Positions 4,403-41,382 of a stretch of DNA of 64,000 nt are shown piece by piece. This DNA is from Zunongwangia mangrovi (lineage in GTDB: Bacteria > Bacteroidota > Bacteroidia > Flavobacteriales > Flavobacteriaceae), in assembly GCF_900112105.1 (NCBI RefSeq), contig NZ_FOKV01000003.1, positions 248,001-312,000 on the forward strand, in the 5' to 3' direction. Each line of letters opens with the position of its first letter. The first letter of the stretch is position 1. A program made the position numbers and the translations under genes. Under the pieces are notes generated by a model. That model had not been told where the DNA came from. It ran no database searches and saw only the letters and a program-made list of their open reading frames with translations.

Positions 4403-5547
4403 TAGTTTACGTAATCTACGATCTCTAAGCCATATCCAATCATACCAACACGTTTGGTTTGCTTAGAGTTAGAAAGTAATTTTATTTTATGAATGCCAAG
4501 ATCGTGTAAGATCTGTGCACCAATTCCAAAATCTTTATTGTCCATAGAAGGTTGCGGTGCTTTTATTTCACCTTCCTTCTGGCTGTCTTTTAATTCTGCT
4601 AATCGGGTTAATAAACTCAATGGCTTAGTTGCCGGATTAATAAAAACGATCGCGCCTTTACCAGCTTTTTCAATAGCCTTAAACATCGCATCGAGCTTTT
4701 TATCGGCATCGTTGGTAAGCGTGCCTAAAATATCATTGTTTACCAAAGTAGAATTCATTCTAACAAGAACATCTTCTTCTTTGGTCCATGATCCTTTGGT
4801 AAGCGCAATATGGATCTGGTTATTAGTAGTTTGTTTGAAAGCTCTGAGTCGAAAATCGCCAAATCTGGTCTTAATTTCAAAATCTTCTTCTTTTACAATA
4901 AGCGAATCATGTTGCATACGGTATGCTACAAGATCTTCTATTGAAATAATCTTAAGATCAAATTTTTTAGCTACTTCCATAAGTTCAGGAAGTCTTGCCA
5001 TGGTGCCATCTTCATTTAAGATCTCTACCAAAATTCCGGCAGATTGTAAACCTGCAAGCCGAGCAAGATCGATAGAAGCTTCAGTATGGCCAGTTCTTCT
5101 TAGAACGCCACCATTTTTTGCACGTAGTGGAAATATATGTCCTGGACGGCCTAAATCTTCAGATTTAGTTTCTTTTTCGGTTAATGCTTTAATCGTTTTT
5201 GCACGATCGTGGGTAGAAATTCCTGTTGTACAACCATGACCAATAAGATCTACAGAAACGGTAAACTGCGTATTGTGTAAAACGGTATTATCGTCTACCA
5301 TTAAATTTAATCCCAGTTCTTTAGAGCGATCTTCAGTAATAGGAGCGCAAATCAATCCGCGTCCATGAGTAGCCATAAAATTGATCATCTCTGGTGTAAC
5401 TTTCTCTGCAGCAGCAACAAAATCACCTTCATTTTCGCGATCTTCGTCATCTACAACGATAATTACTTTCCCAGCTTTGATGTCCTCAATAGCTTCTTTT
5501 ATTGTATTTAATTCAAAGGATTTATGTCCTTCATTAATTCCTGACAT
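4399..5547 (-). CDS. ribB: 3,4-dihydroxy-2-butanone-4-phosphate synthase with decayed GTP cyclohydrolase II-like domain
   Basis: The riboflavin pathway enzyme that turns ribulose 5-phosphate into 3,4-dihydroxy-2-butanone 4-phosphate. Residues 15-210 form the RibB domain: [10 protein letters not shown] (33-42, metal and substrate binding), [16 protein letters not shown] and [16 protein letters not shown] are all present. The remaining 170 residues follow the GTP cyclohydrolase II fold in outline (GDFRLRAF near the start, [23 protein letters not shown] near the end) but lack the zinc-binding cysteines and the HSECLTGD/RCDCG-type catalytic motifs, so only the RibB activity is expected. A separate ribA should exist elsewhere. 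It is the last gene of the minus-strand run ftsK-lolA-lptF/G-ribB, 35 bases after lptF/G. Confidence 0.9.
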
Positions 5548-5582
5548 TTTGCAACTTTTTTAGGTTAGCAAAGGTATTTAAT

Positions 5583-7028
5583 CTATTTATCTTTAGGCTT
5601 TACCAATCCTATCTTTTTAAAGAACTTCGATATAGGCTCGGTGATCATATCTAAAGAAAATAATCCCTGATCTGTAGTAGCTCGATAAGTGAAGTAAATT
5701 CCTAAAGGTAACATGATAAGCGTGCTTAGCCACGTGGCAATAAACGGACTAATACTGCCGTCTTCTGCACTGTTCTTGGCAAAGATTCCAATAAAATGAT
5801 AAGTTAGAAATATAATGATCGCTATAACCATTGGCAATCCCATACCTCCTTTACGAATTATTGCACCTAAAGGAGCACCAACAAAAAATAGGACGATACA
5901 GGCCACGGCCAGCACGTATTTTTCGTGTAAAGCAATCTCGTATTTATTTAGTCTTCTAACACTTTGCTTAAATTCCTGTTTCTTAATGGATAAATGAGAA
6001 ATTGCAGCATTGGTAGTTCGAATAGCATCATCTATAATTCTTTGCGATTGATCACTATTATAATTGTCGAGAATAGAATTTTCGAAGGCTTCGTATTTTT
6101 TAGAATCTTCCGGGTTGAAATTAATAGTTAGACCTTTTACTCCGGTTCTACTATACATAGACGTTGCAAAAGCTTCTTTGCGCTCGTTAAGTGATACAGA
6201 AAAGCTATCGATACTTTTGGTAAGTTCACCAATTCTAAGCATGCTTTGAGTCGTATAACTCTCGTCCTCCATATCTACCTGGTTCAATTCAGATAGATCG
6301 ATATTGATGGTATACTCTTCAAAATAACTTTTCATAAAAGGTTTCTGGTCTCTTTTAGAATAGTCGCTTGGTGTAATTTCGTTGTAATAATTCCCATCTG
6401 TAAGAATTAAAGATAAAACATTAGAATCTTCACTACTTACCAGCTCTCCTTCTTTCGACTTTATTACAGTGTAATTTCCTCCTCTATTGTTGTTTTCATG
6501 AATGATCACATCACTTAGATACTGGTCGTTATCGCCAGATTTTTCATCAACTTTAATATTGATGTTTCCAACTTCATTAAAAACACCTTCGGTAATAGCC
6601 ATTGCGGGTTTCATTTTAGCAATATTCTTCCGCAGGTTAATGATCTTGAATTCGGCTGCCGGAATAACATTGTTGGCAAAAACAAAAGCGGTAACACTAA
6701 CTAATAATATAAATAATGTTAGACCTCGCATTGCTCGCTGCAGAGAAATACCAGAAGATTTCATGGCAGCGAACTCATAATTTTCAGCAAAATTACCAAA
6801 GACCATGATCGAAGTTAGTAGTATGGTTAGTGGTAAAACCATAGGAACTAACTTAGGTGTGGTGTATAAAAGGAATTTTAAAATGATCGCTACATCCAGG
6901 TCTTTACCGGCCAGTTCACCAATGTATAACCATATGGCCTGGAGTACAAAGATGAACATCAAGATGATAAAAACGGTAAAGAACGTTTGTAAATAACTTA
7001 CCAGTATGTACCTGTCGAGTATTTTCAA
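5583..7028 (-). CDS. LptF/LptG-family lipopolysaccharide export permease
   Basis: Inner-membrane permease of the YjgP/YjgQ family, which together with LptB moves lipopolysaccharide from the inner membrane into the Lpt bridge. Seen: start MKILDRYILVSYLQTFF, the family's N-terminal signature; three N-terminal membrane helices (about residues 12-35, 50-80, 95-125) with ENYEFAAMKSSGIS between helices 2 and 3; a large periplasmic domain (about 130-375); three C-terminal helices (about 380-455). Length 481 is longer than the E. coli proteins (about 360), owing to an enlarged periplasmic domain, which is usual in Bacteroidetes. It starts 10 bases after lolA. Whether it is LptF or LptG is not decided here. 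Confidence 0.88.
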   Translation of the reverse strand: MKILDRYILVSYLQTFFTVFIILMFIFVLQAIWLYIGELAGKDLDVAIILKFLLYTTPKLVPMVLPLTILLTSIMVFGNFAENYEFAAMKSSGISLQRAMRGLTLFILLVSVTAFVFANNVIPAAEFKIINLRKNIAKMKPAMAITEGVFNEVGNINIKVDEKSGDNDQYLSDVIIHENNNRGGNYTVIKSKEGELVSSEDSNVLSLILTDGNYYNEITPSDYSKRDQKPFMKSYFEEYTINIDLSELNQVDMEDESYTTQSMLRIGELTKSIDSFSVSLNERKEAFATSMYSRTGVKGLTINFNPEDSKKYEAFENSILDNYNSDQSQRIIDDAIRTTNAAISHLSIKKQEFKQSVRRLNKYEIALHEKYVLAVACIVLFFVGAPLGAIIRKGGMGLPMVIAIIIFLTYHFIGIFAKNSAEDGSISPFIATWLSTLIMLPLGIYFTYRATTDQGLFSLDMITEPISKFFKKIGLVKPKDK

Positions 7029-7695: not shown

Positions 7696-10113
7696 TTATT
7701 TAGGTTCTTCGTTTAGTAATTGCTCTAAAGCTAAAAGATCTGGCACTAAAACCTGTCTTGCTTTACTTCCTTCAAACTGTCCTACAATTCCGGCAGCTTC
7801 AAGCTGATCTATAATTCTACCGGCCCTGTTATAACCAAGTTTTAGTTTTCGCTGCAGTAAAGAAGCCGATCCCTGTTGGGCGGTTACAATAACTTCAGCA
7901 GCTTCTCTAAATAGCTTATCGCGTTCGCTCACATCTATATCAAGTCCTGTGCCACTTTCCTCGCCTTCGTAGGCTGGCAGCATGTGCGCATCTGGGTAAG
8001 CTTTTTGGGATCCAATAAACTCGGTTATCTTATCTACTTCAGGAGTATCTACAAAAGCACACTGCAAACGTTTCATAGAACTTCCCTGAGTGAAAAGCAT
8101 ATCCCCGCGACCAATTAATTGATCTGCTCCCGGGCCATCTAAAATAGTTCTAGAATCGATCTTAGAGGTTACTCTAAAAGCGATACGAGCCGGGAAGTTA
8201 GCTTTTATAATCCCGGTAATAACGTTTACCGATGGTCTTTGCGTTGCAATAATTAAATGTATTCCTACAGCACGAGCAAGCTGAGCTAAACGTGCTATCG
8301 GAGTTTCTACTTCTTTACCGGCTGTCATAATTAAATCTGCAAACTCATCGACCACGAGTACAATGTATGGTAAAAATTTATGTCCGTTTTCAGGATTTAA
8401 TTTTCGGTTTTTAAACTTAACATTGTATTCTTTAATGTTACGAACCATAGCATCTTTAAGCAGTTCGTAACGATCGTCCATTTCAATGCAAAGAGAATTT
8501 AATGTGTTAATTACTTTGGTGTTATCTGTGATGATTGCATCATCTGTATCTGGTAATTTTGCTAAATAATGACGTTCAATTTTATTGAAAAGCGTCAATT
8601 CTACCTTCTTAGGATCTACCAGTACAAACTTAACTTCAGCTGGATGTTTAGAGTAGAGTAGGGAAGTAAGTATCGCGTTAAGCCCAACAGATTTACCTTG
8701 TCCTGTCGCACCTGCCATAAGCATGTGTGGCATTTTGGCAAGATCGACCACAAAAGTTTCGTTACTAATAGTTTTTCCCAAGGCCATTGGCAGTTCCATT
8801 TCGGCACCTTGAAATTTGGGTGAAGCAATTACAGATCGCATCGATACGATGGTAGAATTTTTATTAGGCACTTCTATACCAATAGTCCCTTTTCCTGGGA
8901 TTGGCGCTATAATTCTAATTCCAAGTGCTGCTAATGAAAGTGCGATATCATCTTCTAAGTTTTTGATCTTAGAAATTCTAATTCCGGCTTCAGGAACAAT
9001 TTCGTATAAGGTAACCGTTGGACCAACCGTAGCTTTAATTTGGGCAATTTCGATCTTGTAGTTCTTAAGCGTATCTACAATTTTGTTCTTATTTTCCTCA
9101 AGTTCTTTTTGATTTATCGTAATGCCACCGCCATAATCCTGCAATAATTCTATGGTTGGGAATTTATAATTTCCTAGCTCTAATGTAGGATCAAATTCGC
9201 CAAAATCACTGACTAATTTTTTGCTGAGTTTATCTTCCTCTACTTCCTCTTCTTCAGGAGCGGTTTCTACTTCCATTGCAAGCTCGTCTGGCTTTTCTTC
9301 TTTTTCTTCGGAAGTTTTTTGAGGGGTATTCTTAATTTCTGAAGCCGCATTAACTTCAGAAAGGTTGTTTTCGAAATCAATTTCTGGAGCCGAATCATCT
9401 ACCTGAAGTGTTTTTTCTTCAGTTTTTACAGATTGTTTTTTCCAGTCTTGTTCTTCATCGGTCTCATTGGCGGTCATTTTTTGACCAGAAGCTTCTTTGG
9501 CAGCTTTAAATTCAGCATTAATATCGTCCTTTTTAGTTTTTACAAACGTACCAACCATTTCTGGCGTAAGCTTTAAGCGTAATGCAGCGTAAGCGATAAA
9601 AAGGAAAAACAGGAGCAGTGCCGTACCAAAAAAGCCTAAATAATCCTGAAGAAAATCATTCATTTCATAACCAATGGTTCCTCCTAATATAGAATGCTCT
9701 GTAAAAAAGCCAAAAACTATGGATGCCCAGATCATAACCAAAATTCCCCAAAACCAGAAAGATGCCAGTTTTTTTGCTGCCATTCCAAAGAATAAATAAA
9801 TACCAGAGATGGTAATAAGAACGGCAATCGAGAATGAAGCGACACCAAATCCCTGATAGATAAAGAAATCGCTAATTAGAGCACCAAATTTGCTTAACCA
9901 GTTTTTTGCTTCGATATTACGATCACTAAATTCCTGTAATGTGCTTTGATCTGCCTGCCAATTGAACAAAAATGAGATAAACGCCACTACAAGTGCCAAT
10001 CCAAAAAGCATAAGAAAACTGCCCAAAACCACCTTTTGATGTCTGTTAAGCGCTAAAGAGAATTTCTTCGTTTTTTTAGTAGTTTTCTTAGTTCTGGTTT
10101 TCTTTTTGGCCAT
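7696..10113 (-). CDS. ftsK: DNA translocase FtsK
   Basis: Septum-anchored DNA translocase for chromosome segregation and dimer resolution. The ATG at 10113 (MAKKKTRTKK) is preferred over the upstream in-frame start at 10182, because a -7 promoter box lies at 10136-10143 inside the longer frame and FtsK proteins of this group begin with a Lys/Thr/Arg-rich run. Seen: four N-terminal membrane helices (about residues 30-180), an acidic Glu-rich linker (about 200-310), the motor with Walker A GATGQGKS near residue 468 and Walker B LVVDEFADL near 588, the ATQRPSVNVITG stretch, and a C-terminal gamma winged helix (QRKLKLGYNRAGRIIDQLE), which reads KOPS sequences. First gene of the operon with lolA, lptF/G and ribB. 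Confidence 0.95.
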   Translation of the reverse strand: MAKKKTRTKKTTKKTKKFSLALNRHQKVVLGSFLMLFGLALVVAFISFLFNWQADQSTLQEFSDRNIEAKNWLSKFGALISDFFIYQGFGVASFSIAVLITISGIYLFFGMAAKKLASFWFWGILVMIWASIVFGFFTEHSILGGTIGYEMNDFLQDYLGFFGTALLLFFLFIAYAALRLKLTPEMVGTFVKTKKDDINAEFKAAKEASGQKMTANETDEEQDWKKQSVKTEEKTLQVDDSAPEIDFENNLSEVNAASEIKNTPQKTSEEKEEKPDELAMEVETAPEEEEVEEDKLSKKLVSDFGEFDPTLELGNYKFPTIELLQDYGGGITINQKELEENKNKIVDTLKNYKIEIAQIKATVGPTVTLYEIVPEAGIRISKIKNLEDDIALSLAALGIRIIAPIPGKGTIGIEVPNKNSTIVSMRSVIASPKFQGAEMELPMALGKTISNETFVVDLAKMPHMLMAGATGQGKSVGLNAILTSLLYSKHPAEVKFVLVDPKKVELTLFNKIERHYLAKLPDTDDAIITDNTKVINTLNSLCIEMDDRYELLKDAMVRNIKEYNVKFKNRKLNPENGHKFLPYIVLVVDEFADLIMTAGKEVETPIARLAQLARAVGIHLIIATQRPSVNVITGIIKANFPARIAFRVTSKIDSRTILDGPGADQLIGRGDMLFTQGSSMKRLQCAFVDTPEVDKITEFIGSQKAYPDAHMLPAYEGEESGTGLDIDVSERDKLFREAAEVIVTAQQGSASLLQRKLKLGYNRAGRIIDQLEAAGIVGQFEGSKARQVLVPDLLALEQLLNEEPK

Positions 10114-17983: not shown

Positions 17984-19279
17984 ATGAAAAAACTATTCAG
18001 TCTTTTCCTGATCTTATTTTCGGTTTATTCATCCATTGCGCAATGTGATTGTGATCAAACCATTTCATCCAGTATATGGAATGGTGGTTATACATTTCAA
18101 TCTAATAAAACGTATTGTATTCAGGGAAATATTACGATAAGATATAATGTGACTTTCCAAAATAATACAAGTATTTGTATTCCTCAAGGAGCTACGCTGA
18201 AAATTGATAATACGATGAATGGTGGTGCTAGTAATAAGGTTGATATAAGCGTATACGGTAACCTTATTGTACCTAATACTTTTCCAGTAAGTTTTGATAT
18301 TCATGTTTATAATGGTGGTAATATTACAGGTCTTAGAGGGATTAAACAGGATATTCAGATGAATGGAGATAATTTTAATCTTATAATCGACGAGGGGGGT
18401 AGTTATAAATTTGGGAATTTGAATTTAAATAATAATGGTAGAGAAAATACGATAGAGAATCATGGGACGATGACAATTGATGGGGAAATTAATACTCGTA
18501 ATGCAAAATCAGCATTAAGATTAGATAACTATGGAACTATTGATATGACAGGAAATATTTATTTCAGTAATTCATCTGGAACTAATACTTTTTATAATCA
18601 TGGAAATTTAAGTTGCCTGGGAGTGTATTCAACAGACCCAACATTGCATATGCAAAATGCAGGAACTATGTCGATGTCTCAGAATTATGATAATACTGAA
18701 AACAGCGTATTTTCAAATTGTGGAACATTCAGAATGAATGGTAGTTGGGGATTTAATTTAAGAGGTTTAATTATAAATACAGGGAATATGATAATTCCTA
18801 ATAGTTCTATAGCATTCTCTTCTACAGGTAGAATTCAAAACTATAGTGTAATGAGTTTAAAACAGATAGCTATGGATCCCAATTCAATAATTTATAATGA
18901 AGGTGAAATAACATTCGCAGAAGCTCCTAATACTAATATAAGATTTGCTGGGCCTGGTGCAAATGAGCAGCCAGAACATTCTGATTCTAGTAATTATGGT
19001 AGATTTAAATGGCCAGGCACACAGTCTAATCAATCTGGTTGGGCTAGAGGCAATTTAAACTTTGTTACTACTACTCCAAGTACGGTTAATGATAACAATG
19101 CTTACGGGATGTTTGGAAGATGGAATAGCGTAGAATTTGATAGTTCAGTAAAATTTGGAAACTGTAATACTTGTACAGTTATTACAGAATATGATCAATG
19201 CGCTAACGCAGATGGTACTTGGCCGGTTATTGGGCCAAAATGTATCCCGGTAAACAGGCATGTAAGAACATATTTATAA
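17984..19279 (+). CDS. Secreted Asn/Gly-rich protein, probable beta-helix
   Basis: A 431-residue exported protein that I do not recognise. Seen: signal peptide MKKLFSLFLILFSVYSSIAQ, then CDCDQTISSSIW; a long repetitive middle (about residues 60-330) of short strands broken by N, NG, N-x-G and G-T turns (for example NHGTMTIDG, NYGTIDMTG, NHGNLSCLG, NAGTMSMSQ, NCGTFRMNG, NTGNMIIPN), spaced roughly every 20-25 residues. This is what a right-handed beta-helix looks like. The C-terminus carries a Cys-rich patch (GNCNTCTVI..QCANADGTWPVIGPKC). No type IX C-terminal sorting domain is seen, so its anchoring is open. It is 15 bases downstream of the VGIGT protein gene and followed by a strong terminator. 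Confidence 0.65.
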   Translation: MKKLFSLFLILFSVYSSIAQCDCDQTISSSIWNGGYTFQSNKTYCIQGNITIRYNVTFQNNTSICIPQGATLKIDNTMNGGASNKVDISVYGNLIVPNTFPVSFDIHVYNGGNITGLRGIKQDIQMNGDNFNLIIDEGGSYKFGNLNLNNNGRENTIENHGTMTIDGEINTRNAKSALRLDNYGTIDMTGNIYFSNSSGTNTFYNHGNLSCLGVYSTDPTLHMQNAGTMSMSQNYDNTENSVFSNCGTFRMNGSWGFNLRGLIINTGNMIIPNSSIAFSSTGRIQNYSVMSLKQIAMDPNSIIYNEGEITFAEAPNTNIRFAGPGANEQPEHSDSSNYGRFKWPGTQSNQSGWARGNLNFVTTTPSTVNDNNAYGMFGRWNSVEFDSSVKFGNCNTCTVITEYDQCANADGTWPVIGPKCIPVNRHVRTYL

Positions 19280-34397: not shown

Positions 34398-35390
34398 ATG
34401 GGATTGGAAAATAATACAGAATTAAAAACCGTAAAACTGGTAAATAGAGCCAGTACAGAGGTTATTATCGTAAATTTTGGTGCTGCAATTGGTAGTATAA
34501 AGTTATACGATAAAAACCAGAAAATGGTAAACGTAATGGTCTCTCCAAAGATTGAAGATTTACCATCACCGTTAAACAAAACGCATAACCAGTGTTTTGG
34601 AGCTTCAATAGGAAGGTATGCCGGTAGAATTGCTGAAGGTAAATTTCAGTTAGAAGACAAAGAATATAGTCTTCATCAGGAAAACGGAGTTCATTTACAT
34701 GGGGGAGAGAATGGATTTCAGTATAAATACTGGGAGATCGTAGAAGAAAAGCACGAGGAAAATCCTTCTGTTAAGTTGAAATATTTTAGTAAACATAACG
34801 AAGAAGGATACCCTGGTAATCTGGAAGTCTTTGTGACTTATACTTTGAACGAAGACAATGATCTTATTATCGAATACGAAGCAAAGACCGATAAAAAAAC
34901 GGTTGTGAATTTAACAAATCACGCCTATTTTAATCTGAATGGTGAGGGAAGTGTAAGCGATCATTTTTTAAAGATCAATGCTGATAAGATCCTCGAGATC
35001 GATGAAAAGCAATTACCAACCGGAAATCTTAACAATCTACGTGGTCACGCAAAAGATTTTGGGAACAATCGCCTAATAGGGAATAGAAATCTGGACGATA
35101 CTTTTGTATTGAACAGTGATGGGGACGAACTGGGAGCACAACTTTTTGCACCGCTAACCGGTATAAAATTAGATATGTCTACCAATCAACCTGCGGTAGT
35201 AGTTTATGCACCAGAGTCTTTACCAGACGATCTGGATTATCAAACCAGAATATCTGAATTTCCTTCGATTTGTTTTGAAGGACAAAACTTCCCCGATGCG
35301 CCCAACTTCAGGAATTTCCCGAATAGCGTTTTAGAGCCAGGAGAAGATTATTATAACAGAATTAGTTTTAAATTCAGTGTGAAAAAATAG
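34398..35390 (+). CDS. galM: Aldose 1-epimerase (galactose mutarotase)
   Basis: A 330-residue enzyme interconverting alpha and beta anomers of galactose and glucose, the first step of the Leloir pathway. Seen: NFGAAIGSIKLYDK, GASIGRYAGRIAEGKFQLEDKEYSL, catalytic His in VHLHGGENGFQYKYW, TNHAYFNLNGEG with the second His, and LPDDLDYQTRISEFPSICFEGQNFPDAPNFRNFPNSVLEPGEDY with the catalytic Glu in the FEGQ region. No signal peptide, so cytoplasmic. It heads a plus-strand pair with the sugar symporter but is parted from it by 181 bases holding an operator-like palindrome. Its own start lies 12 bases after a terminator. Confidence 0.93.
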   Translation: MGLENNTELKTVKLVNRASTEVIIVNFGAAIGSIKLYDKNQKMVNVMVSPKIEDLPSPLNKTHNQCFGASIGRYAGRIAEGKFQLEDKEYSLHQENGVHLHGGENGFQYKYWEIVEEKHEENPSVKLKYFSKHNEEGYPGNLEVFVTYTLNEDNDLIIEYEAKTDKKTVVNLTNHAYFNLNGEGSVSDHFLKINADKILEIDEKQLPTGNLNNLRGHAKDFGNNRLIGNRNLDDTFVLNSDGDELGAQLFAPLTGIKLDMSTNQPAVVVYAPESLPDDLDYQTRISEFPSICFEGQNFPDAPNFRNFPNSVLEPGEDYYNRISFKFSVKK

Positions 35391-35401
35391 TACTTTTGAC
35401 T

Positions 35402-35424
35402 ATAAGCGTAAATTTTACGTTTAT
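35402..35424. promoter_or_regulatory. Galactose-regulon operator, site A (before the symporter)
   Basis: A near-perfect inverted repeat: left arm ATAAGCGTAAA, central T, right arm TTTACGTTTAT (10 of 11 positions pair). Read in reverse it shares its first 17 bases with site B at 39600. It lies 15 bases before a -7-like box and covers the expected -33 region of the symporter gene. Confidence 0.75.
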
Positions 35425-35439
35425 AAATTAAAAAAGTAA

Positions 35440-35447
35440 TATCTTTA
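35440..35447 (+). promoter_or_regulatory. Probable -7 box of the symporter gene
   Basis: TATCTTTA, seven of eight matches to TAnnTTTG, 15 bases after operator site A. It would give a leader of about 115 bases before the ATG at 35572. Confidence 0.35.
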
Positions 35448-35571
35448 GCGAAATATTGTGAAAATTTTATTTCATTTGGGACACGGTGCATTTTTCTAAA
35501 GCTAGAAAGCTACATCGATTTATTTTCAACTTTTGAGATTTTCTTAAAAATACATTCTAAACTTATTTTAT

Positions 35572-37254
35572 ATGGAATTTGAATTATTAGACGTGATAGT
35601 ATTCGTCGCCTACGCGTTGCTTATAATCGGGGTTGGATTATGGGTTTCTCGAGGAAAAGGGGATACTTCAGAAGATTACTTCCTGGCCAGTAAATCTTTG
35701 CCGTGGTGGGCAATTGGGGCCTCTTTAATTGCAGCAAATATTTCAGCAGAGCAATTTATCGGGATGTCTGGTTCTGGTTTTGCATTAGGATTAGCAATTG
35801 CATCTTACGAATGGATGGCTGCGATCACTTTAATTGTTGTGGGTAAATTTTTCTTACCCATTTTTATTGAAAAGAAACTTTATACCATTCCAGAATTTAT
35901 TGAAGTTCGTTATAGTAAGAACTTAAAAACGATCTTAGCGGTTTTCTGGATCTGTTTATTCATTTTTGTTAACCTTACTTCTGTTCTTTATTTAGGAGCT
36001 ACTGCGCTAGATACCATTATTGGTGGTGGTGATGGTGCTATCTTTATGGAATGTATCATCGGTCTTGCCTTGTTCGCAGCGGCATATTCTCTTTATGGTG
36101 GTTTATCTGCGGTTGCTTGGACAGATGTTGTGCAGGTAGTACTTTTAGTTATTGGGGGTTTAATTACAACTTATATCGCTTTAGAACACGTTTCTAGTGA
36201 TGGAAACATCTTTACAGGAATGTCTGAAGTTTTTGAGCAGGTACCAGAAAAATTCTCGATGATCCTAGATCAGGGGGAAATTATTACTCCAAATGGTAAA
36301 GATGCTTGGTGGGATTTACCAGGAATCGCCGTTTTAGTTGGTGGTCTTTGGGTTGCTAACCTTTATTACTGGGGCTTTAACCAGTATATTATTCAAAGAA
36401 CACTTGCTGCTAAGAGTTTAAAAGAATCTCAGCGTGGTATTGTGCTTGCAGGATTTTTAAAGATATTAATTCCGCTTATTACAGTAATTCCGGGAATAAT
36501 CGCTTTCGTGATGAATACCGATGCTAGCGGACTAATTAGCGAAGGTGTAACCAGTGCTTCATTCTTTGGTGAAAACGGAAGAATTATAAATGATAACGCA
36601 GCACCATGGTTAATTAAAGAATTTGTACCAGCAGGTCTTAAAGGACTTGTTTTAGCCGCTCTTGCAGCAGCTATCGTATCTTCTTTAGCTTCGATGCTGA
36701 ACTCTACGGCTACCATCTTTACAATGGATATTTATAAGCCTTTCTTCCAGGAGAAGGCAGGTACTTCAGAAAAAGGATTAGTAAATGTTGGTAGAGTAAC
36801 TGCAACTATCGCTTTGATCATTGCAATTATTTTAGCACCACAACTAAAGAGTTTGGGGCAGGTTTTCCAGTATATTCAGGAGTATACAGGTGTTGTTAGC
36901 CCAGGGATCTTAGCGGTATTTATGTTAGGTTTATTTTGGAGAAAAACAACAAATAATGCTGCAATTTGGGGAGTATTAGTATCTATTCCAATTGCTTTAT
37001 ATTTCAAGATAGGGCCAAACGGCTGGATCGATTCTCCGTTCTTTATTACCTGGCCATTTATGCACCAGATGATGGCAACATGGATTTTAACGATGATCAT
37101 TATGGTTATCATTACCTATCTTGAAACCGGTGGTAAAATTCAGGAGAAATCTATTAAACTTAGTAAAGATCTTTTCAAAACAGGACCAATTTTTAATATT
37201 GGTAGTTTTGCTATCATTTTAATTGTTGCGATGCTTTACGCCATGTTCTGGTAG
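35572..37254 (+). CDS. Sodium/sugar symporter of the SGLT (SSS) family, galactose/glucose type
   Basis: A 560-residue inner-membrane Na+-coupled symporter of the solute:sodium symporter family. About fourteen helices are visible. Family and SGLT landmarks: DYFLASKSLPWWAIGASLIAANISAEQFIGMSGSGFALGLAIASYEWMAA, YTIPEFIEVRYSKNLK, YSLYGGLSAVAWTDVVQ, LYYWGFNQYIIQRTLAAKS, LAAAIVSSLASMLNSTATIFTMDIYKPF (Na+ site residues Ser/Thr) and VVSPGILAVFMLGLFW. It sits between galM and galT-galK and has a shared operator upstream, so galactose is the probable substrate. A bidirectional terminator follows. Confidence 0.92.
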   Translation: MEFELLDVIVFVAYALLIIGVGLWVSRGKGDTSEDYFLASKSLPWWAIGASLIAANISAEQFIGMSGSGFALGLAIASYEWMAAITLIVVGKFFLPIFIEKKLYTIPEFIEVRYSKNLKTILAVFWICLFIFVNLTSVLYLGATALDTIIGGGDGAIFMECIIGLALFAAAYSLYGGLSAVAWTDVVQVVLLVIGGLITTYIALEHVSSDGNIFTGMSEVFEQVPEKFSMILDQGEIITPNGKDAWWDLPGIAVLVGGLWVANLYYWGFNQYIIQRTLAAKSLKESQRGIVLAGFLKILIPLITVIPGIIAFVMNTDASGLISEGVTSASFFGENGRIINDNAAPWLIKEFVPAGLKGLVLAALAAAIVSSLASMLNSTATIFTMDIYKPFFQEKAGTSEKGLVNVGRVTATIALIIAIILAPQLKSLGQVFQYIQEYTGVVSPGILAVFMLGLFWRKTTNNAAIWGVLVSIPIALYFKIGPNGWIDSPFFITWPFMHQMMATWILTMIIMVIITYLETGGKIQEKSIKLSKDLFKTGPIFNIGSFAIILIVAMLYAMFW

Positions 37255-37280
37255 AAATCAAAGAAAATACATATAAAACA

Positions 37281-37314
37281 AAAATCCCGAAGCATTACAC
37301 TTCGGGATTTTTTA
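37281..37314. terminator. Bidirectional terminator between symporter and galT
   Basis: AAATCCCGAAG (37282-37292) pairs perfectly with CTTCGGGATTT (37300-37310), flanked by A and T runs. It serves both convergent genes. Confidence 0.88.
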
Positions 37315-37335
37315 TTGGTTGGTTAGGTGGAAAAA

Positions 37336-38376
37336 TTATTGCTTTAGATAATGAATATCGCTTAAGTTTTGTAAAGTTTTTGCAGCTTGCTCTGCAGTAA
37401 TATCACGTTGTGGGCCGGCAAACATTTCGTATCCTACCATAAATTTTTTTACGGTAGCCGAACGTAAAAGCGGTGGATAAAAACTCATGTGCCAATGCCA
37501 TTCAGGATAATCGGATCCATCGGTTGGAATTTGGTGAATTCCGCTTGAATATGGGAACGAGGTTTCAAACAGGTTATCGTATTTTATGGTCAGTTTTTTA
37601 AGAATTTCAGCAAAAGCTTTTTCTTCTTCCTGGTTTAACTGTCCAATATGCTGTTGATGTTTTTTTGGAGCGATCATAATCTCATAAGGCCAAACTGCCC
37701 AGTAAGGAACTAACGCCACAAAATGCTTATTTTCAACAATAATGCGCTCTTTAGCTTCTAATTCCTGTTTTATATAATCCCCAAGTAAACTGCTTTGATT
37801 CTTATCCCAATATGCTTTAAAATGCTTCGATTTTTTTTCAATCTCTGTTGGAATAGACATTTGTGACCAAATTTGTCCATGTGGATGCGGATTACTACAG
37901 CCCATAATGGCGCCTTTATTTTCAAAGATCTGAACGTAATTAATGTTGTCCTGGCTACCTAATTCGGCGTATTCTTTTTTCCAGGTTTTCACAACTTTGG
38001 TAATATCTTCTTCTTCCATAAGAGGAAGCGTAAGCGAGTGATCTGGAGAAAAGCAAACCACTTTACAAATACCAACTTCGGTTTCGGCTTTCATTAATCC
38101 GTTTTCCTGAGTTGCCATAGGGCTATCAATTAAAAGCGCAGAGAAGTCGTTTATAAAAGTATAAGGTTCTTTATAATCTGGGTTTTTATCACCGGTACTT
38201 CTTGTATTTCCCGGGCATAAATAACAGCTGGGATCGTAAGTTTCTTTTTTAGGCGTGGTATCTTTCTCGGTTTTTCCCTGCCATGGTCGCTTTGTACGAT
38301 GCGGAGAACAAAGAATCCATTCACCGGTTAGAATATTATATCTTCTATGAGGGATCGAATTAATATCGTGACTCAT
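37336..38376 (-). CDS. galT: Galactose-1-phosphate uridylyltransferase
   Basis: A 346-residue enzyme exchanging UMP between UDP-glucose and galactose 1-phosphate. Seen: NIPHRRYNILTGEWILCSPHRTKRPWQG at the N-terminus, zinc-site CYLCPGN, and CSNPHPHGQIW with His164-Pro-His166, the nucleophile position also His166 in E. coli GalT; PEWHWHMSFYPPLLRS near the C-terminus is the conserved histidine cluster. It follows galK by 23 bases on the same strand. Together they convert galactose to glucose 1-phosphate; the epimerase galE is not in the window. Confidence 0.95.
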   Translation of the reverse strand: MSHDINSIPHRRYNILTGEWILCSPHRTKRPWQGKTEKDTTPKKETYDPSCYLCPGNTRSTGDKNPDYKEPYTFINDFSALLIDSPMATQENGLMKAETEVGICKVVCFSPDHSLTLPLMEEEDITKVVKTWKKEYAELGSQDNINYVQIFENKGAIMGCSNPHPHGQIWSQMSIPTEIEKKSKHFKAYWDKNQSSLLGDYIKQELEAKERIIVENKHFVALVPYWAVWPYEIMIAPKKHQQHIGQLNQEEEKAFAEILKKLTIKYDNLFETSFPYSSGIHQIPTDGSDYPEWHWHMSFYPPLLRSATVKKFMVGYEMFAGPQRDITAEQAAKTLQNLSDIHYLKQ

Positions 38377-38399
38377 TTTTATCGTTTTCTAATTAGTAA

Positions 38400-39563
38400 T
38401 TATAATTTTTCTACGATTGTTCCTTCACTTGGTGAAACAGCAATAGTATCTAATTTTATATTGAATTTTTTGAAGTAAGCTTCAGCAGCTTCAGCAACAT
38501 ATTCGTCGATCTTATCAGCTTCAATTAAATTAATGGTACAGCCGCCAAAACCACCACCCATCATTCGGGAACCATAGATGTAATCTTTATCTCTGGAAAA
38601 TTCAACTAAAAAGTCGAGTTCCGGGCAACTAACTTCATAATTATGCTGAAGTCCGTCGTGAGATCCATACATTAATTCTCCAAATTCGTTAAGTTTTCCT
38701 GCTTTTATCGCAGTTGTGGCATTGATTACACGCTCGTTTTCCTCGATCACATAACGTGCTCTTTGGTACTGTTTTCCTTCTAACTGCGCTTTAAATTCTT
38801 CAAGCATTTCAAGGTTTACGTCACGAAGACTTTTTACTTCAGGATATTTTTTCTGAATCACTTCAACAGCAGCTTCACATTCCTGTCTACGCGTATTATA
38901 TTCGCTATCGGCAAGATTGTGAGAAACATTGGTATTCAGCAACAACAATTTACAGGATTTAAAATCTGCCGGAATATATTCAGCATGTAAACTTTCACAA
39001 TCCAAAAGAATAATATGATCCTGTTTACTCATTACTGAAGCATATTGATCCATAATTCCGCATTTATTACCTACAAAATTATGTTCGGCTTTTTGCGATA
39101 GCTGAGTAATTTCAACTTTGCTTAAACCAAGATCGAAAAGAGCATTTAGTCCAGAAGCAAAACCACATTCTAAGGCCGCAGAAGAACTAATTCCTGCACC
39201 GGTAGAAAGGTCGCTTTTAATGATACAATCAAATCCTTTCAAAGATTTTCCTAAAACCTTGATTTCGTTAGTTACTCCTAAAACATAGTTTTCCCAGGAT
39301 TTTTCGCTTATCGATAAATTGTTATGATCGAATTCTAAATAGGCGTTATAGGTAACGCTATAAATACGACAGGTACTATCTGTCTCATTTTCTTTAAATT
39401 CAAAGTATATTTTTTTATCGATTGCGGTAGGCATCACAAAACCATTGTTATAATCTGTATGCTCGCCAATTAGGTTTATTCTTCCGGGAGAAGCCACTTT
39501 AATGCTAGGCTTAAAATTAGTGAAAGTTTCCGGTAATTTTTGCGCGTTGGTTAAAGTACTCAA
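38400..39563 (-). CDS. galK: Galactokinase
   Basis: A 387-residue GHMP kinase phosphorylating galactose at C1. The start is a TTG at 39563: no ATG or GTG lies between the nearest upstream region and the conserved ASPGRINLIGEHTDYNNGFVMP (about residues 24-45), so a later start would cut the active site. Other motifs: GAGISSSAALECG (phosphate loop), CGIMDQYASVMS with the catalytic Asp, and MMGGGFGGCTINL. First gene of galK-galT. A -7 box (39592-39599) and operator site B (39600-39622) lie directly upstream. Divergent from the Nudix-type regulator. Confidence 0.95.
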   Translation of the reverse strand: MSTLTNAQKLPETFTNFKPSIKVASPGRINLIGEHTDYNNGFVMPTAIDKKIYFEFKENETDSTCRIYSVTYNAYLEFDHNNLSISEKSWENYVLGVTNEIKVLGKSLKGFDCIIKSDLSTGAGISSSAALECGFASGLNALFDLGLSKVEITQLSQKAEHNFVGNKCGIMDQYASVMSKQDHIILLDCESLHAEYIPADFKSCKLLLLNTNVSHNLADSEYNTRRQECEAAVEVIQKKYPEVKSLRDVNLEMLEEFKAQLEGKQYQRARYVIEENERVINATTAIKAGKLNEFGELMYGSHDGLQHNYEVSCPELDFLVEFSRDKDYIYGSRMMGGGFGGCTINLIEADKIDEYVAEAAEAYFKKFNIKLDTIAVSPSEGTIVEKL

Positions 39564-39591
39564 AGTGCTTATTTTTAGTAAATTTATAGAT

Positions 39592-39599
39592 CAAATATA
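39592..39599 (-). promoter_or_regulatory. -7 box of the galKT promoter
   Basis: Minus-strand TATATTTG matches TAnnTTTG exactly, 28 bases before the TTG start of galK. It abuts operator site B, which occupies the -33 to -7 spacer, as expected for repression by steric block. Confidence 0.55.
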
Positions 39600-39622
39600 A
39601 TAAACGTAAAATTTACATTCAT
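39600..39622. promoter_or_regulatory. Galactose-regulon operator, site B (between galK and the Nudix-type regulator)
   Basis: Inverted repeat with left arm ATAAACGTAAA and right arm TTTACATTCAT around a central A (9 of 11 positions pair). Its first 17 bases are identical to the reverse of site A. It touches the galK -7 box and is 65 bases before the regulator's ATG, so it could serve both directions. Confidence 0.75.
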
Positions 39623-39687
39623 CTTTTTAATTGATTATTTTTTAACTATTTCCCTATATTTAACAGCCAACTGTATAAAATACACTT

Positions 39688-40392
39688 ATGACGCCAGCTT
39701 TAAAAGATCTATACGTTCAAAAAGATAAAATGTATGTAGCAACCGACTGTATTATTTTTGGTTTTGATGCAGGGAAGTTAAAGCTACTTGCTTTTAAACG
39801 TAGGGTAGAACCATTTTTGGGAACCTGGTCTTTGATAGGAAGTTTTGTGCGAATGGAAGAAGACGTAAGCGTTGCTGCCAAACGTGTACTTACTGAAATT
39901 ACAGGTTTAGACAATGTTTTTATGGAGCAACTTAAAGCTTATGGGCTGGCAGATCGAGATCCTGGCTATCGCTGTGTTTCAATCGCACAGTTTGCTTTGA
40001 TAAGAATCGACGATTACGATAAAGAGCTTACAGAAAAGCACGGTGCACATTGGTTTGATTTAGAAGAATTGCCAGAGTTGGTATTAGATCACAGCCAAAT
40101 GGTAGAAGATGCAATGGCACGATTAAAGCGTAAAGCGAGATATCAACCTATAGGTTTTGAGCTTTTACCAGAAAAATTTACGATCCCGCAATTACAATCT
40201 TTATACGAAGCTATTTACCAAAAGAAACTGGACGATCGAAATTTCAGAAAAAAATTGATGACGCTTGGCTTATTGATCAAACTGAACGAAAAAGATAAAA
40301 GCTCTTCGAGAAGAGGCGCTTTTCTATATAAATTCGATTATGATAATTATCAAAAGCTGGTGAAATCTGGATATAACTTCGAGATTGCTTAA
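39688..40392 (+). CDS. Nudix-domain / winged-helix transcription regulator (NrtR-like)
   Basis: A 234-residue regulator of the NrtR-like group: an N-terminal Nudix domain (about residues 15-140) and a C-terminal winged helix (about 155-230, with FTIPQLQSLYEAIYQKKLDDRNFRKKLMTLGLL). Such proteins control sugar catabolism in other Bacteroidetes, e.g. AraR of Bacteroides. The Nudix box (GSFVRMEEDVSVAAKRVLTEITGL, here split as about 51-74) departs from GX5EX7REUXEEXGU: first Gly is Ser, RE is RV and EE is EI, so hydrolysis is unlikely and the domain probably binds a sugar or sugar phosphate. Divergent from galK; the nearby palindromes are its likely operators. Confidence 0.88.
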   Translation: MTPALKDLYVQKDKMYVATDCIIFGFDAGKLKLLAFKRRVEPFLGTWSLIGSFVRMEEDVSVAAKRVLTEITGLDNVFMEQLKAYGLADRDPGYRCVSIAQFALIRIDDYDKELTEKHGAHWFDLEELPELVLDHSQMVEDAMARLKRKARYQPIGFELLPEKFTIPQLQSLYEAIYQKKLDDRNFRKKLMTLGLLIKLNEKDKSSSRRGAFLYKFDYDNYQKLVKSGYNFEIA

Positions 40393-40453
40393 ATTGAATC
40401 AATTTTATTTGATATATTATTAAAATTATAGGATTTAAAGTCAGTTTTTAATT

Positions 40454-40476
40454 TATAATGTATATTTTACGCTTAT
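40454..40476. promoter_or_regulatory. Galactose-regulon operator, site C (before the TIM-barrel isomerase)
   Basis: The right half TTTACGCTTAT is identical to the outer half of site A read in reverse; the left half (TATAATGTATA) keeps the GTA core only. Overall 17 of 23 positions agree with site A. It ends 18 bases before the ATG of the isomerase gene. Confidence 0.55.
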
Positions 40477-40494: not shown

Positions 40495-41382
40495 ATGAGT
40501 AAAACAAATCGAAGATCTGCGATTAAGACAATGGCAATGGGAGCTGGAGTTTTAGGTTTAAGCCCAATAATTGCATTGGAGGCTGAAGCAAAACCAACCA
40601 ACCTAAATATGAAACGTTTAAAAAACAATATTAAACACTCTGCCTGTCGCTGGTGCTATCAAAGCATTCCTTTGGAAGAATTTGCAAAAAATGCTGCAGA
40701 AATTGGACTAAAAGGAATCGATCTTTTAAAGCCTGAAGAATGGGAAACTGTTGAAAAATATGGTCTTGAATGTTCTATGGCTACAGATACTTTTGCAAAT
40801 ATTGAAAATGGATTTAACGAAGTTAAAAACCATAAGCATTTGCAGGAATCTTACATGCCTTTAATCGAAAAAGCTTCTAAACACGGAATAAAGAATGTGA
40901 TCGTTTTTTCTGGTAATCGCCGCGGGATGGACGATGAAACCGGATTTAAAAACTGCGTAACAGGTTTAAAGCCATTGTTGGAATATGCACAAGAACGTAA
41001 TGTAAATCTTGTGATGGAGCTTTTAAACAGTAAAGTAGATCACCATGATTATATGTGCGATCATACCGAATGGGGTGTAGAGCTTGCTAAACGTACAGAA
41101 ATGCCAAACTTTAAATTACTTTACGACGTATATCATATGCAAATTATGGAAGGTGATGTAATTGCTACGATCAGAAAACATCATAAATATATAAACCACT
41201 ATCATACTGGTGGTGTTCCCGGTAGAAATGAAATTAATGATTCGCAGGAATTATTTTATCCGGCAATCATTAAAGCAGTTATAGAAACCGGTTTTGATGG
41301 TTATTTAGCGCAAGAGTTTATCCCAACTTACGATGATCAATTGGCAGCCTTAAAAGAAGGTATTAAAATTTGTGACGTCTAG
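40495..41382 (+). CDS. Tat-exported hydroxypyruvate isomerase-like TIM-barrel protein
   Basis: A 295-residue protein of the xylose isomerase-like TIM-barrel superfamily, closest in style to hydroxypyruvate isomerases (Hyi/OtnI). It starts MSKTNRRSAIKTMAMGAGVLGLSP: a twin-arginine followed by a hydrophobic stretch, so Tat export to the periplasm is likely. Seen: HSACRWCYQSIPLEEFAKNAAEIGLKGIDLL, MELLNSKVDHHDYMCDH (metal ligand Glu), LLYDVYHMQIMEGDV (Asp and His), HYHTGGVPGRNEI and YLAQEFIPTYD (Glu). Metal-site residues thus look complete. It follows the Nudix-type regulator gene and has operator site C in front, tying it to galactose metabolism; its substrate is unknown. A good AAGGA ribosome site precedes the ATG. 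Confidence 0.8.
   Translation: MSKTNRRSAIKTMAMGAGVLGLSPIIALEAEAKPTNLNMKRLKNNIKHSACRWCYQSIPLEEFAKNAAEIGLKGIDLLKPEEWETVEKYGLECSMATDTFANIENGFNEVKNHKHLQESYMPLIEKASKHGIKNVIVFSGNRRGMDDETGFKNCVTGLKPLLEYAQERNVNLVMELLNSKVDHHDYMCDHTEWGVELAKRTEMPNFKLLYDVYHMQIMEGDVIATIRKHHKYINHYHTGGVPGRNEINDSQELFYPAIIKAVIETGFDGYLAQEFIPTYDDQLAALKEGIKICDV

Follow-up and report, generated by a model that had tools for sequence, protein, structure and literature searches.

The question raised by a galactose locus of Zunongwangia mangrovi (Flavobacteriaceae) is which protein controls its genes and to which signal that protein responds. The locus lies in a stretch of 64,000 nucleotides (contig NZ_FOKV01000003.1, positions 248,001 to 312,000 of the forward strand), referred to here as the window. 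An earlier note had proposed that a Nudix-type regulator encoded in the locus binds three related 23-bp motifs, placed before the symporter, galK and regulator, and isomerase genes, and senses a galactose intermediate. Our comparative analysis makes it quite likely that this regulator acts as a dimer to repress a galactose regulon, with free D-galactose as the probable signal that lifts the repression. The features that bear on this conclusion are as follows.

39688 to 40392, + strand: regulator gene, 234 amino acids, Nudix-like domain and winged helix, NrtR/AraR family, gal-type clade
38400 to 39563, - strand: galK, galactokinase, TTG start
39592 to 39599, - strand: -7 box of galK, TATATTTG, one base from operator B
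35402 to 35424: operator A, before the symporter gene, ATAAGCGTAAATTTTACGTTTAT; 21-bp palindrome at 35403-35423, no mismatches
39600 to 39622: operator B, between galK and the regulator gene, ATAAACGTAAAATTTACATTCAT; palindrome at 39601-39621, one mismatch
40454 to 40476: operator C, before the isomerase-like gene, TATAATGTATATTTTACGCTTAT; palindrome at 40455-40475, two mismatches
39668 to 39688: operator-like site D, ending on the regulator ATG, CAACTGTATAAAATACACTTA, two mismatches

All three motifs were found where the earlier note had placed them, and operator A, reversed, is identical to operator B over 17 bases; operator C follows the right half of operator A except for one base. A weaker fourth copy, site D, had been overlooked. 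All four sites represent a single palindrome, whose consensus by cross-genus comparison is TAARYGTA-N5-TACRYTTA. The core given earlier, GTAAA-N-TTTAC, was rejected as the motif, as the bare 13-bp core at up to one mismatch is not enriched genome-wide (24 places in 4.13 Mb versus 33 for the control) and its inner A/T bases differ between species; the conserved core is GTA-N5-TAC. The extended palindrome WWARCGTAAAWTTTACGYTWW occurs at up to two mismatches in five places in the 4.13 Mb, three of which are operators A, B and C. The cross-genus consensus, also at up to two mismatches, gave 50 sites in the genome (26 for the control pattern), and four of the 50 fall within this 5-kb locus, where about 0.06 would be expected by area. 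Matches at C22:10918, C9:158981, C8:23460 and window position 18246 lie inside reading frames and were set aside. Among congeners (the window, L014, L018 and L082), several bases of site A differ while GTA-N5-TAC is constant, which suggests selection on the palindrome. Site D is retained at two mismatches in L014, L018 and L082, and its location at the start codon makes self-control of the regulator possible.

Assignment of the regulator to the NrtR-like Nudix/winged-helix family was borne out by Pfam models (NrtR_WHD 3.7e-27, AraR_C 1e-12, NUDIX 2e-7; PF00293, PF21906 and PF19368 above cut-offs) and by its best solved relative, AraR (BT0354) of Bacteroides thetaiotaomicron, hereafter BtAraR (PDB 5bs6, E value 1.7e-75, 116 of 219 aligned residues identical; further structures 5dd4, 5ddg and 5deq), which has the same architecture. 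The traits of the family that were found include the Nudix-like N-terminus, the C-terminal winged helix, a palindrome near putative target genes and a degenerate Nudix signature (by eye, RE to RV and EE to EI). The NrtR of Shewanella (PDB 3gz5/3gz6), which responds to ADP-ribose and regulates NAD genes, shares this architecture and matches the window regulator at an E value of 2.5e-22, but the arginine of its nucleotide site, Arg98, aligns with Gly89 of BtAraR and with Gly in the window regulator, whose neighbours are gal and not NAD genes. A role in ADP-ribose or NAD metabolism was rejected on this pocket residue and on the gene context. When 59 rows were placed in a tree, the regulators linked to gal genes formed a clade of 45 rows (support 100/98), referred to here as gal-type, apart from the AraR-type rows.

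The ligand pocket bears on which sugar is sensed. The published description of BtAraR has Arg34, Arg86 and His131 binding the hydroxyls of L-arabinose, Tyr5, Phe36, Phe49 and Val92 around sugar C4 and C5, and Phe129 toward C2 (PMC4666351). Arg34, Arg86, His131 and Phe49 are invariant in all 45 gal-type and all 12 AraR-type rows. The gal-type rows have V or I at position 36, S, A or N at position 48 (Ser in the window regulator, aligned to BtAraR Gly48) and, in 40 of the 45, L at position 129; all AraR-type rows have G at 48 and F at 129. D-Galactose differs from L-arabinose by an additional C6 group, for which the smaller residues near sugar C5 could make room. Because the hydroxyl-holding residues of BtAraR are all kept, free galactose appears a likelier ligand than the galactose intermediate proposed earlier.

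It is also conceivable, but unlikely, that L-arabinose has remained the ligand, or that the regulator responds equally to the two sugars, and that the galactose genes are thereby coupled to arabinose, for example during growth on arabinogalactan. The pocket residues common to both types would fit such a regulator, and in Maribacter arabinose proteins are reported to occur on galactose as well (PMC11036162). However, the genome has a separate AraR-type paralogue, which adjoins SusC/SusD-like genes and an arabinofuranosidase-like gene (names read from sequence), positions 48 and 129 divide the two types as described above, and the gal-type clade is tied to galK. Residue 48 separated gal-type from AraR-type in every aligned row and can be used for annotation (in BtAraR numbering, G for AraR-type; S, A or N for gal-type). 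In a phylum-wide sample of 395 genomes, 39 had a match; none of the 28 relatives aligned from these, 27 of them from outside the Flavobacteriaceae, had a gal-type residue at 48. Position 36 alone does not divide the types, because six of these 28 relatives have I or L there.

Conservation of the operator was evaluated in 299 Flavobacteriaceae genomes, 73 of which had a regulator match at an E value of 1e-65 or better. Among the matches fetched from these 73, a gal-type pocket was found in 35, the own genome included. Duplicates (L021, L022, L027 and L017, equal to L092, L094, L098 and L089) were removed before counting. Of 19 intergenic regions between divergent galK and regulator genes, 17 contain a site at up to two mismatches, where 0.07 would be expected from dinucleotide shuffles. 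The other two (L091, L096) have three mismatches because of the operator change associated with Gly180 that is described below.

The palindrome is also kept before gal genes where the regulator lies elsewhere in the genome. A site with no or one mismatch precedes galK in ten such genomes (G266, G257, G269, G144, G225, G212, G102, G026, G061 and G003), and in four others (G207, G115, G071 and G153) such a site is found some 1 kb upstream of galK, where the run of sequence that leads into this gene begins; in G207 it is between a vSGLT-like symporter and a frame that by eye resembles a mutarotase and is followed by galK. Regulators remote from galK were therefore dropped as counter-examples, since their genomes carry the site before galK in trans. 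Within a fixed 400 bp before galK, a site at up to two mismatches was detected in 25 of the 33 genomes that carry the regulator. The eight misses are the four with the site about 1 kb upstream, the two with three mismatches, and L111 and L113, in which the site (two and zero mismatches, respectively) precedes the regulator heading or sharing the operon.

For comparison, 60 genomes taken down the galK list and lacking a gal-type regulator by the 299-genome search were scanned; in this uneven control set, none of the 60 galK genes had a site at up to two mismatches, and one had a site at three. Eighteen of these genomes hold 19 weaker regulator matches, and residues 36 and 48 mark all 19 as AraR-type. 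A merely fortuitous resemblance between AT-rich promoters, with which the lack of enrichment of the bare 13-bp core would agree, is of negligible probability because of the 17 of 19 intergenic regions against 0.07 by shuffles, the absence of sites at that threshold from the 60 controls, and the covariation described next.

Covariation of regulator residue 180 (BtAraR numbering) with operator base -6 is the strongest link between the regulator and the palindrome, and the regulator is tied to the operator because of it. In BtAraR, Arg180 is described as intercalating between operator bases -6 and -5 (PMC4666351). The comparison comprised 55 gal-type regulators, the window's included, each with its own operator, and the search pattern was open at -7 and -6 for all except six operators. 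G722 was excluded from the count, there being no good site near its regulator and its galK not having been fetched. Near-identical rows in the set are five from Zunongwangia, G774 with L026, and G716 with L016. Base -6 is C or T, giving a YpG step, in 90 of 92 half-sites of Arg180 regulators, with one A and one G, whereas for Gly180 regulators it is A, giving an ApG step, in 17 of 18, with one G. A at -6 in both half-sites is found for eight of nine Gly180 regulators versus none of 46 with Arg180, or none of 40 without the six operators (G257, G225, G212, G026, G003 and G152) that came from scans already requiring C or T at -6.

Gly180 occurs in three of the 45 aligned gal-type rows and in nine of the 55 in the larger set. 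It is found in two genera; a single change to Gly180 is compatible with only 4% of bootstrap trees, but two changes are not required by the branches with good support. The regulator gene adjoins galK in every one of the nine Gly180 genomes, including G245. The exact variant palindrome TAAAAGT-N7-ACTTTTA occurs 15 times in these nine genomes (reversed control, none); in eight of the genomes one copy is at the promoter between the regulator gene and galK, which accounts for eight copies. Other copies lie 31 bp before an aldose 1-epimerase gene in G681 and, in G684, 137 bp before a GH2 gene and before a sulfatase gene. By eye, a sulfatase-like frame also lies on the other side of this last palindrome (L285). 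The chances appear evenly balanced that in the galactose branch the unusual insertion of arginine into the stack of operator bases was lost, probably twice, and that each time the -6/-5 step went from pyrimidine-purine to purine-purine, at galK and at a few unlinked sites. If so, the easily opened YpG step would be the partner needed by an intercalating arginine, and the gal branch would be a natural series on the shift between intercalating and non-intercalating reading of DNA. Naturally occurring pairs of residue 180 and base -6 could thus serve to test what arginine intercalation contributes to DNA recognition.

The covariation also bears on the view that some other transcription factor uses the palindrome and that the Nudix-type gene is a bystander, for which the LacI-type and GntR-type regulator genes in the Kordia locus (L023) could be cited. 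This view is very improbable, since the operator base changes with a residue of the Nudix-type regulator, the palindrome shares its centre and GT/AC spacing with the solved BtAraR operator, and the operator is found at galK even when the regulator is elsewhere in the genome.

Several observations weigh against a galactose regulon controlled in this way. The Fisher value for residue 180 and base -6, 7e-9, ignores relatedness, and no obvious connection to sugars was seen for four of the 15 variant sites (L271, L274, L279 and L281). Among the 60 control galK genes, only 14 have at least 110 bp of free upstream DNA (none of the 14 with a site) and 46 do not, and operon starts were traced for the positives but not for the controls. 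G164, which has an AraR-type regulator only, carries a two-mismatch site before galK; of the three such genomes scanned, the other two have no site there. No site precedes the symporter gene in six of 12 other loci (L085, L087, L090 and L111-L113), site C is absent from congener G100, and galM has no site in any of eight loci nor within the 300 bp before the window galM. The earlier note would have been refuted by a motif without conservation at the gal genes of relatives, and the motif proved to be conserved there. The proposal of a galactose regulon of the adjacent regulator is nevertheless supported by this conservation and by the covariation; the isomerase-like gene would be a target on the evidence of site C, the weakest of sites A, B and C.

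The position of operator B next to the -7 box of galK, which had been pointed out earlier, recurs in most divergent loci. In 17 of 22 such loci, the operator is followed at 1 bp by the box TAnnTTTG, which we take to be the -7 consensus; in L094 the box begins at 12, about one helical turn further, and among the 22 the exact box was not found in L092, L019, L020 and L023. In L094, L019, L020 and L023, the distance between the operator and a box or box-like sequence is 11-12 bp rather than 1 bp; the box is exact in L094 only. We infer repression from this geometry, because the operator at galK is directly upstream of the -7 box and the bound protein should block RNA polymerase. The regulator might instead be an activator that needs galactose, as site positions alone leave the sign undecided and, at the symporter, a TATCTTTA box that is conserved among four Zunongwangia genomes is at a greater distance from the operator. 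We regard this as improbable given the 1-bp spacing at galK and the loss of DNA affinity reported for BtAraR with its sugar (PMC4666351).

As a repressor, the regulator would belong to the sugar branch of the NrtR family and be specific for galactose, sitting as a dimer on TAARYGTA-N5-TACRYTTA with one winged helix per half-site. D-Galactose would enter through the vSGLT-type symporter and bind the Nudix-like pocket where BtAraR holds L-arabinose; the winged helices would then turn, the DNA would be released, and the uptake and Leloir genes (symporter, galK and galT) would be turned on.

Judged from sequence, the regulator would thus work like BtAraR, yet it is no AraR by context, operator or DNA-contact residues. 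The two share the hydroxyl contacts, the operator centre, the GT...AC frame at -5/-4 and the placing of operators before a sugar operon. In contrast to BtAraR, the genes nearby are gal and not ara genes (galK, galT, galM and the symporter), so that the link of AraR to arabinose catabolic genes is missing, pocket residues 36, 48 and mostly 129 are changed, and the operator is TAARYGTA-N5-TACRYTTA and not GTGT-N7-ACAC. The full set of BtAraR DNA contacts (Lys179, Arg180, Asn181, Lys184, Lys204 and Arg205) is not kept: none of the 45 gal-type rows has Lys179, the residue there being D, S, P, T, A or G, and two genera have lost Arg180. XylR (BT0791) of B. thetaiotaomicron, compared by its description only (PMC3878776), belongs to the same family and is a predicted sugar regulator, but of xylose genes; it is given as 33% identical to AraR (PMC4666351). 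For B. thetaiotaomicron, AraR and XylR are listed as the NrtR-type sugar regulators, with no galactose regulator among them (PMC3878776). In Maribacter, a galactokinase is reported to be induced on arabinogalactan (PMC11036162). No galactose member of the family was found in the literature searched, a search that did not extend to RegPrecise, preprints and most subscription journals. If the proposed function is correct, galactose joins the sugars read by Nudix-fold regulators, and a regulator and operator are assigned to the Leloir genes of many marine flavobacteria.

The earlier description of the sites as preceding genes of a galactose locus agrees with the gene content, which besides galK comprises the following.

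34398 to 35390, + strand: galM, aldose 1-epimerase
35572 to 37254, + strand: vSGLT-type sodium/sugar symporter, E value 2e-189 to vSGLT
37336 to 38376, - strand: galT, galactose-1-phosphate uridylyltransferase
40495 to 41382, + strand: isomerase-like gene, AP_endonuc_2 fold, with a putative part in galactose use

Among solved structures, the symporter is closest to the Na+/sugar symporter of Vibrio, vSGLT, with which it shares 321 of 531 aligned residues. Of the seven positions that we take to form the vSGLT sugar site, six are kept, Ser91 being replaced by Ala; at position 294, the vSGLT chain compared has Ala and the window symporter has Lys, presumably the wild-type residue. The regulator of Zunongwangia atlantica is 99% identical to that of the window.

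Sites were also found at other genes. Before the symporter gene, a site with no or one mismatch is present in the other six of the 12 loci (L014, L018, L082, L083, L084 and L086). Before the isomerase-like gene, four of seven other loci have a site at up to two mismatches, site C being retained in L014 and L018 and similar sites occurring in L085 and L086; L082, L087 and L113 have no site there. In the Kordia gal locus (L023), where the LacI-type and GntR-type genes are at 5354-6361 and 8694-9719, a second palindrome lies at 9899 before a TonB-dependent receptor gene.

Elsewhere in the own genome, a GH2 hydrolase gene (L206, 3096-4946), a candidate beta-galactosidase of the regulon, is preceded at about 55 bp by a perfect site (C17:183032), and a one-mismatch site at C27:18901 lies 344 bp before SusC/D genes; both are candidate targets only. 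At C12:83832, TAAGTGTTTTTATTACACTTA precedes an FGGY sugar kinase gene and resembles an AraR-type site, so that a single genome may contain two sister regulators whose operators are almost the same. The AraR-type paralogue beside SusC/D-like genes and the FGGY kinase gene with TAAGTGT-N7-ACACTTA share contig C12 (L119, L047).

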